This document shows positions 37,095 to 60,408 of a stretch of DNA of 64,000 nucleotides, piece after piece (position 1 is the first letter of the stretch; every line of letters begins with the position of its first letter). Source of the DNA: Polytrichum commune (lineage: Eukaryota; Streptophyta; Polytrichopsida; Polytrichales; Polytrichaceae). The position numbers and the translations under genes are program-made. The stretch covers positions 52,514,001 to 52,578,000 of the forward strand of contig OX485804.1 in the NCBI GenBank assembly GCA_950295325.1, in the 5' to 3' direction. The notes below the pieces were generated by a model, which had not been told where the DNA came from, ran no database searches, and saw only the letters and a list, made by a program, of their open reading frames with translations.

Positions 37095-38165
37095 GGGGGG
37101 TCAGCCCTTCCCTATCAAGGTGGAGTCACCCCTTAGAGTGCAGGAAGGGTCTATGATCGGGGAGAGCCGGCAGTTAGTTACAGATGAACTGGTTGAGTTT
37201 GAGAAATAACCGGTTGAAGTTCAAGACTGCAGGAAAATTACCGATCATTTTAGAGGAATTTATAGAATATATCCCAATTTAATAAAGGAAAACTGAAGGA
37301 TGTCAACACGTAACCAGCTGGACTTGCAAACACCAGGATCTCAACCGATTATGTCCTAAAATCTCCTCGATTACTGGCAAGGATGGTTTTTGGTTTGCCT
37401 GTGGTGGCGTCTAGATCGTCCCTCGATATGGAGAGAGGAAATTAAAGTATACGAGCGCACCTCTCATCCATCCATTATAAAAATCTGAACCCTCTCTAAG
37501 TTTGTTGTCGATTCATCTCAAAATATGCTCAAGTTTACTAATTTGGGTTCCTTAAAGTGAATCCGCCCGGGGTTAGATCACATCTTCATTCGGTTGGGCC
37601 CTGCCCCTTCCACACCTCCTTCACTACATGGTCTTCCCGCTTGCACCTATGTGGGAACTATTCCCCGTTGGGAACCAACTTGACAATACCCGGCCAAAAT
37701 TACAAATATGCAAGTTGACATCACTTTCATTATTCCCAAGTTAATTGATGAGAGTTCCTTCACATGCCAAAGAAGCTTCTTGGCTTAAGTGACCGGGTAT
37801 TGTCACATTGGTTCCCAACGAGAAAGAGCGCCCACGCAGGTGTGGGCAACAAGACCGGGTAGTGAAGGAGGCATGGGAGGGACGGGGCCCAACCGAATGA
37901 AGAAGTGATCTAGCGCGGAGCAATTCAGCCCTTCCCTGCCAAGATGGAGTCACTCCATAGAGTGGAGGAAGGATGATCATTGATTTTCTCACGGTGGCAT
38001 CTAGGTCGTCCCCTTGACATGGAAAGAGGTAATTCAAGTATACGAGCGCACCTCTCATCCATCCATCCATCCATCCTTAAAACTTGAACCCTCTCTAAGT
38101 TTGTTGTCCATTCATCTCAAATATCGTCAAGTTAACTAATTTGCGGTCCTTAAAGTTAACCCTGG
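37095..38165. repeat. Direct repeats flanking an inverted-repeat core
   Basis: Outer direct repeats: TCAGCCCTTCCCT(A/G).CAAG(G/A)TGGAGTCAC.CC(T/A)TAGAGTG at 37100 and 37925, and the block from GGTGGC(G/A)TCTAG(A/G)TCGTCCC through CTCATCCATCC and CCCTCTCTAAGTTTGTTGTC at 37405-37560 and 37995-38150. Between them, 37567-37700 is inverted at 37787-37920 (GATCACATCTTCATTCGGTT against AACCGAATGAAGAAGTGATC; TTGACAATACCCGG against CCGGGTATTGTCAC). The 5' direct repeat is split by an R5 insertion (37165-37350). Confidence 0.6.
37165..37350 (-). repeat. Dispersed CCGGTT repeat, family R5 (copy 4)
   Basis: GAGAGCCGGCAGTTAGTTAC, GAACTGGTTGAGTTTGAG, AAATAACCGGTTGAAGTTC, AATTTATAGAATATA and CACGTAACCAGCTGG occur in the usual minus-strand order. 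It interrupts the longer direct repeat whose uninterrupted partner is at 37925-38160, so it inserted after that duplication. Confidence 0.65.
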
Positions 38166-38287
38166 TGTCAACAAATCAACTTTTAAAAACAACCTCCTCA
38201 CTACTTCACACTATAGTTCTAGGCTTTTACAAAATTGTTGATTGAAAGATAGGGACGCTCGAATATGTTGATTCCTTCCGTCTCTCC

Positions 38288-38685
38288 CAGTGTTCAAGAT
38301 TGAAAGCCCTCATATGACTTTCATTTTAAAGGGCTCTCAAAATTTTAGCCTTTCACTTGAAGGGTCGGTTCAAATCCAAGACGTCAACCATGAATATAAA
38401 AATGAAATACAAGACTCATATCAAACTTGTGCATGAATTATACGGTACATGTTCCCAATATAGTGTGAAGAATCAAGAATCTACCATCTAACCCCACTTC
38501 TTGTAGTGACAACGCCCTACGCTCGTCGGTTCTTATGGTGGACATGCATATTATATCGAGGACTTCAAGTGACGTCTTCGTTTTCAATTTGGGGTTGCGT
38601 TTTGAAGGGTTGTTTGAGAGAAGTATATTCTGAAGGGCGAAATCACGTTTGAAGGGCATTGAAGGCTTCAATCTTTGAACACTAG
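38288..38685 (-). mobile_element. Short non-autonomous hAT derivative
   Basis: CAGTGTTCAAGATTGAAAG at 38288 is the 3' terminus of the hAT family described at 59332-60408, here in reverse. Homology continues through GCCCTCATATGA.TTTCATTTT and the sequence encoding the transposase C-terminus RRALSLQEV-LD (minus strand, about 38545-38485). The other end, CTTCAATCTTTGAACACTAG, matches the opposite TIR imperfectly. Only the last ~12 transposase codons and both ends remain. No 8-bp duplication is seen (GTCTCTCC versus TATGATCT). Confidence 0.7.
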
Positions 38686-40120
38686 TATGATCTTGAGGAC
38701 AACAAAGCATGCTTTCGATGATAAGCACGACACATGAATTCATATAGAATTGGCAACTTCAAGCGACGTCTTCATTTTCAATCTGGGGTTGCGTTTGGAA
38801 GGGTTGTTTGAGAGAGGTATATTCTGAAGGGCCAAGTCACGTTTGAAGGGCATTGAAGGCTTAAATCTTTGAACATTGGTATGATCTTGAGCACAACCAA
38901 GCATGCTTTCGATGATAACCACGAGACATGAATTTATATAGAACTGGCAACTTCAAGTGACATATTCATTTCCAATCTCGGGTTGCGTTTTGAAGGGTTG
39001 GTTTTGAGAGAGGTATATTTTGAAGGGCCAAATCACGTTTGAAGGGCATTGAAGGCATCAATCTTTGAGCACTAGTATAATCTTAAGCATGGCCAAGCAT
39101 GCTTTTGATGATAGGCACAACACATGAATTCATATAGAATTGGCAACTTCAAGTGACATCTTCATTTTCAATTTGGGGTTGCGTTTTGAAGGGTTGGTTT
39201 TGAGAGAGGTACATTCTGAAGGGCCAAATCACGTTTGAAGGTCATTGAAGGCTTCAATCTTGAAAATTGGTACGATCTTGGGCACATCAAAGCATGCTTA
39301 TGATGATATATAGCCACGACACATGAATTCATATAGAACTGGCAACTTCAAGTGACATCTTCATTTTCAATCTAGGGTTGCGTTTTGAAGGGTTGTTTGA
39401 GAGAGGTACATTCTGAAGGGCCAAGTCACGTTTGAAGGGCATTGAAGGCTTAAATCTTTGAACATTGGTATGATCTTGAGCACGGCAAAGCATGCTTTCG
39501 ATGATAAGCACGACACATGAAGTCATGTAGAACTGGCAACTTCAAGTGACATCTTCATTTTCAATTTGGGGTTGCGTTTTGAAGGGTTGGTTTTGAGAGA
39601 GGTGCATTCTGAAGGGCCAAATCACGTTTGAAGGCCATTGAAGGCGTCAATCTTTGAACACTAGTATGATCTTGAGCACAACAAAGCATGCTTTCGATGA
39701 TAAGCATGACACATGAATTCATATAGAACTAGCAACTTCAAGTGACATCTTCATTTTCAATTTGGGGTTGCGTTTTGAGAAAGGTATATTATGAAGGGCC
39801 AAATCACGTTTGAAGGCCATTGAAGGTGTCAATCTTTGAACACTAGTATGATCTTGGGCACATCAAAGCATGCTTTTGATGATATATAGCCACGACACAT
39901 GAATTCATATAGAACTGGCAACTTCAAGTGACATCTTCATTTCCAATTTGGGTTTGCATTTTGAAGGGTTGTTTTGAGAGAGGTATATTCTGAAGGGCCA
40001 AAGCACGTTTGAAGGGCATTGAAGGCTTCAATCTTGAACACTGGTGTGATCTTGAGCACGGCAAAGCTTGCTTTCGATGATACATAGGCACAACACATGA
40101 ATTCATATAGAACTGGCAAC
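38563..40120. repeat. ~194-bp tandem array derived from a hAT terminus (about 8 units)
   Basis: The anchor CTTCAAGTGACATCTTCATT (with variants) starts at 38563, 38757, 38951, 39147, 39346, 39540, 39736 and 39922, and the array stops within a ninth at about 40120. Spacings are 186-199. In each unit ~125 bp, from the anchor to GAAGGCTTCAATCTTTGAACACTAG (read as GAAGGCTTCAATC, TTTGAACACTAG), aligns with the 5' 125 bp of the intact hAT element in reverse. The other ~70 bp (ATGATCTTGAGCAC..CAAAGCATGCTTTCGATGATA) adjoins it. 194 is not a multiple of three, so the minus-strand frames are not a protein repeat. Confidence 0.9.
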
Positions 40121-40279
40121 ACTTGTCCACCTGTCGCCACACAAGCCACTCTGTACATAATATCTCCCCCTCCCACCCAATCACAACCGAACCCCCCCCC
40201 CCTACCCAGTGTCAGCCTCTCCCATATTGGAAACCCCAGATATTATGTGGCCACCGCCCTGGTGGCGACACCCCATTGG
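40121..40279. other. Short spacer with C-rich tract
   Basis: CCTCCCACCC and a C run at about 40193-40202. No feature recognised. Confidence 0.4.
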
Positions 40280-41189: not shown

Positions 41190-41200
41190 CACTGAAAGAA

Positions 41201-41740
41201 ACATGTGTTCAAAAGAGTGTGGACTATGTGCTCAAAATATGCTAAGCATTCTAGGCTCACTAGCCCATATTCATGACCACATGCAATGACAAAACATCAT
41301 CAACACCCACCACATCCATCGACAATCACCTCGACTTGATGCTAACATAGTAGACGTCCCTAAATTATCCAACATACCAATAATTTGGACACCTACATCC
41401 TAGTGGTATGTTGTTAGGTGTAGATCTAAGAACTTGCACCCAAAAAAAACATGTGTTCAAAAGAATGTGGACCATGTGCTCAAAACCGTATACTAACCAT
41501 TCTAGGCTCATTGGCCATATTCACAATCACACACGGTGACAAAGCATCACATCATTTGCCACCTCCATTGACAATCGCCTTGACTTGATGCTAAGATAGA
41601 CGTGCCTAAATTATCCAACATACCAATAATTTGGACACCTACATTTGAGGTGTAGTTCTAATAACTGGCACCAAAAAAACATGTGTTTAGATTGAGTGTG
41701 GACTATGTGTTCAAAATATGCTAACCATTCTAGGTTGGGA
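41201..41740 (+). repeat. ~240-bp tandem repeat, family N11 (2.2 units)
   Basis: Units begin ACATGTGTT(C/T) at 41201, 41449 and 41679 (spacings 248 and 230). Each holds GTGGAC(T/C)ATGTG, CATTCTAGG, GACAATC(A/G)CCT, CCAACATACCAATAATTTGG and ACACCTACAT. The third unit is cut after CATTCTAGG. The same CATTCTAGG region appears near 13600-13690. Confidence 0.75.
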
Positions 41741-59331: not shown

Positions 59332-60408
59332 CAGTGCTCAAAATTGAAGTCTTCAGTGCCCTTCAAATGGGTTTTGGGACTTCAAAACATAATCCTCATG
59401 TCTAAGTGCTCCCTTCACTTGAAGTGCTGGATAAATAGTACCCTTCGAGTATTGTTCATCATCTCAAGTAGCCGTTTAACTCCGGCTGTCTAACTTTGGG
59501 CTCCATATCTCAGATCCAAATGGGAATTAGTCGAGATGGGAATTGTATGTTGATAGGTTTGGTTGTGAGAAAGTGCATACTTTGCACTATGACTCTATGC
59601 CCGGGTGTGATGTAGGGGGCTCGTTGGAGGATTGCATCACCCTTGGTAGACTATACATCCAAAAGGTTATTGACTCACTAAATGATCGCTTCCCCGACTT
59701 GCCTATTTTTAATGTGGCCAAGCTTTTCAACCCAAAACACTATCCCATGGATGCATTGGATCGAGGCACTTTAATTGAGCAATGGTTGAACCGGTTGGTG
59801 ACACATTTCAAGTGGAGCCCTGTTCTTGTTGATCAAGCCAATGCGGAGTTGCTCGAATTTGTGGAGATGTTATCTTCAGCTTGTCAACACCGAAGTATGC
59901 ATGAAGATTGGGTTTTTGGTGGCCGTGACTGAGAGTTTAAGATCAATTGGCCAACCCTAATGTCGCTATGGCAAGCCATACTTGTGATCCCTACTAGCAC
60001 TGTTGTTTGTGAGCGTGGTTTTCCAAAGCATAATTGGGTTAAGAGCGAAAGGAGAACATGCCTAAACCTTGACACACTTGATGCATTGATGAGGGTTAGC
60101 CTAAATAGTTTGGGAGTTGAATTCATGGATTGGAATGGCATTTTTGACACTTGGAAAACCGCTACAGTAACCAACAAGCGTAGGGCATTGTCACTTCAAG
60201 AGGTGGAGTTAGATAATTGATTCTCCATTATTTCATTGTAATAGAAGCATGTACCATGCAAATCATGCATAATTTTAATATAAGTTTTATATTTCTTAGA
60301 AAATTTTCCATTGACGTCCTAGATTTAGATATGCCCTTCAATTGCAATGTTGAAATTTCAGAGCCCTTCAAAATGAAATTCATATGAGGGCTTCAATTTT
60401 GAGCACTG
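59332..60408 (+). mobile_element. Complete, internally deleted hAT element
   Basis: CAGTGCTCAAAATTGAAG (59332-59349) is exactly inverted at 60391-60408. The octamer CTTAAATC lies directly outside both ends (59324-59331 and 60409-60416): a perfect 8-bp target duplication, the hAT signature. The terminus starts with CAG and ends with CTG, as many hAT elements do. The element is 1077 bp and encodes only the C-terminal third of a transposase, so it is non-autonomous. Perfect TIRs and duplication suggest it is one of the youngest insertions in the window. Confidence 0.95.
59531..60220 (+). pseudogene. hAT transposase, C-terminal fragment with one stop
   Basis: One frame runs from 59531 to 60220, interrupted by a single TGA at 59930-59932. 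Before the stop it reads ...RFPDLPIFNVAKLFNPKHYP and ELLEFVEMLSSACQH, typical of the mid C-terminal region in ZNF862/KIAA1586-like hAT proteins. After the stop comes the hAT dimerisation block: LWQAILVIPTSTVVCERGF (the P.S...CER.FS core, with final Ser replaced by Pro), KHNWVKSERR, and LDTLDALMRVSLNSLG. It ends RRALSLQEVELDN. The N-terminal BED zinc finger and the RNase H-like catalytic Asp residues are missing. The same C-terminal end survives at 38.5 kb. Confidence 0.9.

Follow-up and report, generated by a model that had tools for sequence, protein, structure and literature searches.

A local tandem repeat that includes the end of a hAT MITE in Polytrichum commune

The locus studied here lies in a 64,000-nucleotide stretch of the Polytrichum commune genome (GCA_950295325.1, contig OX485804.1, positions 52,514,001 to 52,578,000 of the forward strand), which is referred to as the window and whose own numbering is used for all positions given without a contig label. 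It raises the question of how the end of a transposon, together with DNA that lies outside it, came to be repeated several times in a row, from which element that end was taken, and whether the product is a satellite. An earlier reading of the same DNA (hereafter the sequence-only reading) had described it as a satellite born from a hAT terminus.

TRF delimited a tandem array at 38562–40120 with a period of 196, 8.0 copies, 87% matches and 3% indels, in good agreement with the sequence-only reading, in which a unit of ~194 bp was repeated about eight times after a 398-bp hAT derivative; the first copy of the transposon end (T1) is the derivative's own end. Each unit consists of T (~124 bp, the 3′ end of the adjoining 398-bp MITE) and F (70–74 bp), the latter having been correctly taken for ~70 bp of adjoining DNA. 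The order along the locus is MITE body (38288–38561), T1, F1, T2, F2 and so forth until T8 and F8, after which non-related sequence begins at about 40119–40121 (Table 1). The eight T and eight F segments were excised at the repeated boundaries and then aligned. T pairs were 79–96% identical and F pairs 78–97%, with the highest values in T2-T5 (96%) and F4-F7 (97%) and 78–94% in the remaining pairs, while T7 carried a 14-column gap in the T alignment.

Table 1. Coordinates of the array, the adjoining MITE and the related hAT element, in positions of the window
Feature	Position	Strand	Evidence
Left flank of the MITE, GTCTCTCC	38280..38287	+	4/8 agreement with the right flank GTATGATC
398-bp non-autonomous hAT element (MITE); last 124 bp = T1	38288..38685	+	hAT match, TIR, copy alignment
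T1, first copy of the MITE end, joined to the MITE body	38562..38685	+	TRF, segment alignment
F1, 70-bp part of the unit outside the transposon	38686..38755	+	genome search
F1 plus seven T-F units	38686..40118	+	segment alignment, TRF array 38562–40120
T starts, units 2–8	38756, 38950, 39146, 39345, 39539, 39735, 39921	+	segment alignment
F starts, units 2–8	38880, 39076, 39271, 39469, 39665, 39847, 40045	+	segment alignment
1077-bp internally deleted hAT, sister family, not the array source	59332..60408	+	blastn, Pfam, scores

The 398-bp element starts with CAGTGTTCAAGATTG... and ends with ...CTTCAATCTTTGAACACTAG, has an inverted terminal repeat (38289–38312 / 38660–38683) and, when aligned with dispersed copies, proved intact at both ends. 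A query of about two array units returned at least 47 genome matches, many of them dispersed and in the T part only (40 of 806 candidates scored), and the dispersed copies that were fetched and aligned extend to an element of ~390 bp with ends CAGTGTTCAAGATTGAAG...; the match between the window element and L005 reached 88% over 398 columns. One 29-mer from T had 412 genome matches at ≤ 2 mismatches, a number to which some array units, and perhaps larger hATs, contribute (reversed control: 0), and another had 236 exact matches (control: 0), with at least 3 of 100 listed exact 29-mer matches falling in long hAT copies (L034–L036). The family has two features by which hAT MITEs are recognized, namely many short dispersed copies without transposase (29-mer count, ~390-bp copies) and TIRs matching an autonomous-type hAT, as both ends match the 6.05-kb element described below. 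T is, by homology, the end of this high-copy ~390-bp hAT MITE family, and whole-length homology assigns the 398-bp element to it as a copy, possibly one that was rearranged later rather than an undisturbed insertion.

The parent family is represented by a 6053-bp hAT copy at C3:7399801–7405853 (L034 1202 to L029 4354), flanked on either side by the 8-bp target-site duplication (TSD) CTCGGACC; its long transposase ORF runs for 706 aa from the first ATG, and hAT open frames in the genome reach 781 aa. Its end matches T at 88% over 127 columns, i.e., over all of T, and the same copy matches MITE positions 1–250 at 83% and 271–396 at 88%. Queries with the C-terminal piece of the element at 59332–60408 gave 150 scored matches among 1642 candidates, in groups of ~88–100% and 84–85% identity. 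The ends of L029, L030, L032, and L033, four fetched members of the 84–85% group, match MITE 1–250 at 83–84%, and the opposite hAT ends (L033–L036) match MITE 271–396 at 87–88%. Because the two ends of the 6.05-kb family match the ends of the MITE, the MITE is an internal-deletion derivative of this family.

The sequence-only reading had named another donor, a supposedly intact hAT element at 59332–60408. This element is 1077 bp long and internally deleted, and it retains only a C-terminal hAT dimerisation piece (PF05699, E 5.5e-07 in the Pfam scan) that contains an in-frame stop; with L031 it shares 95% identity over 866 bp, and it belongs to the 88–100% group. In blastn, its positions 1–66 aligned with 8/8 T units, over 50–66 bp in each and at 77–83%, and a weak additional match of 24 bp (88%) straddled the start of T1. 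The similarity was above chance for T1, the unit on which the resampling test was run (local score 60, whereas 1000 first-order resampled ends scored at most 30), but about half of T was covered, and the local scores of the eight T units were 47–69 against this end compared with 119–179 against the end of the 6-kb hAT. The element was rejected as array donor on account of these scores and of the partial alignment. The idea that ~125 bp of each unit is a hAT terminus is thus correct for the MITE family and the 6.05-kb hAT and fails for 59332–60408, where 50–66 bp are matched.

The origin of the other part of the unit was checked by searching the genome (408 Mb, 64 contigs) with F extended by 3 bp at either end, which gave 8 matches at E values up to 10, all of them inside the array (8/8 candidates scored), in a search that skips very common words and in an assembly whose gaps may hide copies. 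Since F occurs only at this array in the genome searched, we regard it as local DNA. No genome-wide satellite of the T-F unit was found by this F search of 408 Mb in 64 contigs with common words skipped. From the properties of a satellite, the head-to-tail tandem arrangement is present (TRF), while in place of long arrays and/or many loci there are 8 units, 1.56 kb and one locus found, and in place of the homogenised units left by concerted evolution there is the spread of T and F identities reported above. The genome-wide satellite was consequently rejected, as all 8/8 F matches are confined to this one array, and with it the proposal that the unit is a satellite monomer. The array looks like an ordinary local duplication, a tandem repeat that takes in a MITE end, stays local and is in decay.

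The history of the units was approached with a maximum-likelihood tree in which the 8 array T copies clustered together, apart from 33 others taken from MITEs and hAT ends (support 94/87), a group also present in 96% of 200 bootstrap trees in a run that warned that the bootstrap had not settled. Within this group, T4 and T8 were basal and the MITE-attached T1 was nested. The array T copies share states that only a minority of the others carry, with A at alignment column 87 (8/33 others) and G at column 108 (2/33). T8, at the outer edge, is the nearest to the family consensus with 8 differing columns, compared with 11 in T1 and 9–25 across T1–T7, the value of 25 belonging to T7 with its deletion; the 33 other T copies differ at 3–22 columns, 28 of them at 4–8. 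The T+F unit tree was weakly supported (0/5 branches starred).

The breakpoint of the first duplication could be read directly from the sequence. The unit junction GGCA/ACTTCAAG, the MITE (...GAGG/ACTTCAAG) and the right flank (...GGCAAC/ACTTG) have 2 bp (AC) in common, and therefore the first duplication was not guided by long homology. Microhomology is scarce at tandem duplications produced by break repair in plants. The mosaic similarity of the units, with its maxima in T2-T5 and F4-F7, fits unequal exchange of several units at a time.

Taken together, we consider it highly probable that the array began as one tandem duplication over the MITE/flank boundary, which was enlarged by unequal exchange and then decayed. 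At the start, a MITE of the high-copy hAT family would have adjoined unique DNA, and an error of repair or replication would have produced one tandem duplication, reaching from within the MITE (just before ACTTCAAG, 38562) past its 3′ terminus and ~70 bp into the flank, with the 2-bp microhomology (AC) at the new junction. Unequal exchange or conversion among the copies may then have raised their number to eight and mixed their variants, a mixing that would also have reached T1, the copy joined to the MITE, and the array would subsequently have decayed as ordinary non-coding DNA. The anatomy, the source family, the presence of F at this place only, the grouping of the T copies and the lack of homogenisation are observed, while the repair origin, the unequal exchange and the absence of function are the parts of this history that we infer. 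The amplification of terminus plus flank claimed in the sequence-only reading survives as tandem amplification, with unequal exchange after the first duplication as a fitting route, while nothing was found for the rolling circle.

The left side of the MITE complicates this history. With the right flank GTATGATC at 38685–38692, no clear TSD surrounds the 398-bp MITE, as 20% of random flank pairings reach ≥ 4/8 and the match stays at ≤ 5/8 even if the boundary is moved; the 8-bp TSD that is usual for a hAT MITE is therefore missing from the window copy (4/8). Among the other full-length MITE copies, 19 of 24 had an 8-bp TSD matching at ≥ 6/8, a count from which the partial matches (L003, L009, L018, L019_1071, L025), the duplicated locus L020 and the hAT loci from L029 on were left out, and in which not all copies are independent (the L010/L011 pair, two L021 copies). 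L013, L017, and L019_309 matched at 7/8 with the boundary shifted, L001 (4/8) and L021_498 (3/8) had no TSD at the canonical boundary, and L021_1073, from the same cluster as L021_498, had one at 7/8. The copies at C1:28767933 and C1:28778776 appear to be the two parts of a single segmental duplication, with flanks GGGCAGAT / GGGTAGAT and GGGCAGAT / GGGCAGAT. The poor TSD at the window MITE implies that its left side may not be original and that a plain insert-then-duplicate history is incomplete, which leaves two possibilities, a recombinational swap of the left side with that of another MITE and a loss of the TSD by some other route.

An ectopic recombination by which the T-F array of one MITE was joined, within the MITE body, to a copy with a different left flank would be a serious though less likely addition, as it would add a rearrangement to the tandem duplication and unequal exchange outlined above and not replace them. 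The absence of a clear TSD despite two intact MITE ends speaks for it, as does the position of T1, nested in the array group instead of basal, but L001 and L021_498 also lack a TSD among the 24 copies, which indicates that it can be lost by other routes (L021_498 sits in another duplication cluster, and none was noticed around L001). In addition, a search for a second copy of the left flank brought up only other repeats, mostly a common foldback MITE, a weak objection given that 40 of 1054 candidates were scored; the right flank likewise returned only other repeats (40 of 705 candidates scored). As a separate observation, a direct repeat (37379–37564 / 37969–38162, 80%) lies just left of the 398-bp MITE and is split by an apparent foldback element at ~37565–37925, with at least 39 other places in the genome.

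Duplications that include this MITE and its flank were seen at two further loci. At C2:6003500–6007500 (L020), positions 1078–2195 hold 3.0 tandem units of 373 bp that are 95% alike, more uniform than the window array, each made of 44 bp of left flank and MITE 1–339; the complete MITE at this locus has the flanks AGTTTGCC / GGTTCGAC, matching at 5/8 as read from the sequence. At C2:29850000–29854000 (L037), three MITEs with flank parts in common (86–97%) form a complex local duplication cluster. Each of the three duplication loci has at least one MITE copy with a poor target-site match. The interpretation of L021 as two independent MITE insertions was rejected, as the wider sequence contained shared flanks and hence a duplication cluster. 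It is conceivable, albeit unlikely, that the ends of this MITE family provoke tandem duplication, as the existence of three such loci would suggest; however, they come from 97 loci hand-grouped from 100 listed of 412 places, the others being partly inspected, which yields no rate, the window contains local direct repeats that do not involve the MITE, at least six pairs of them (some perhaps separate insertions), and the breakpoints differ between the window and C2:6003500 arrays. An excess of duplications at the MITE family is neither shown nor excluded by these counts. A wider scheme, in which transposase cuts or nicks at the MITE/flank boundary would be repaired into boundary-spanning duplications, with the high-copy MITE family continually seeding small arrays, of which some, with their dozens of candidate transposase-binding motifs, might serve as decoys, appears quite improbable to us.

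If the MITE end and its flank had been amplified on a rolling circle or otherwise extrachromosomally and then re-inserted, a head-to-tail array of near-equal units would be expected as well, but the confinement of F to this locus, the direct continuation of the array from the MITE on one side and the differences of up to 22% between units, which speak against a recent burst, make this route very improbable. The array carries 30 copies of the motif TGAAGG, with 3–4 in each T, none in F and all on one strand, and in the parent hAT copy the motif occurs 3 and 2 times in the two 200-bp ends and once in 3000 bp of interior, which suggests a candidate subterminal motif. That the 30 copies form a functional array, at which hAT transposase docks or by which it is decoyed, can draw on this T-only distribution and the enrichment at the parent ends as well as on the long hAT open frames (up to 781 aa) in the genome, but deserves hardly any credence, as copying the MITE end would by itself produce this number of motifs, T2 and T7 are each one TGAAGG short, and transposase binding would be presumed from the position of the motif only.

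Many tandem repeats and satellites of transposon origin have already been described, as stated in two reviews (PMC9659126, PMC12628747), among them satellites from MITEs, including Xstir, and a TIR-derived one from Tetris (PMC9659126). Xstir is the tandem repeat that accompanies the Xmix MITE of Xenopus (Hikosaka and Kawahara 2004, via PMC9659126 and PMC12628747), and by these reviews it resembles the window in that a MITE accompanies a tandem array made from part of the same MITE. It differs in that its units are MITE sequence (internal in one review, TIR in the table of the other), whereas the unit in the window includes local flank and is present at one locus in eight units. TIR-220 arrays derive from the Tetris foldback element of Drosophila virilis and are (PMC9659126) likewise a transposon terminus amplified in tandem; Tetris gave rise to satellite arrays, whereas the window holds an eight-unit local repeat. 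Unequal exchange, rolling circle and NHEJ/NAHR are among the mechanisms reviewed for such arrays (PMC12628747). Local tandem duplications from break repair in plants are reported in the titles of two studies (Vaughn and Bennetzen 2014; Schiml et al. 2016, via PMC8355091), with which the window shares a local tandem duplication in a plant genome, in contrast to them with a repair origin that is presumed and with a unit later multiplied to eight. The array falls within these described kinds of transposon-derived repeats, with nothing clearly outside them, and no description of the window locus was found in a partial coverage of the literature by titles and abstract starts. The locus gives a clear view of the early stage at which a transposon end, together with its flank, turns into a tandem repeat, with the parent hAT, the MITE family and unduplicated copies all present in one genome, and it mainly illustrates that the start of such an array can stay local and decay.

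The ORFs of the window, inspected by eye and with a Pfam scan on the hAT piece only, held no obvious gene. Contig C1 begins with TTTAGGG repeats, which point to a plant. To the right of the array, another local tandem repeat with a period of ~246 lies at 41195–41734, and it does not contain this MITE.
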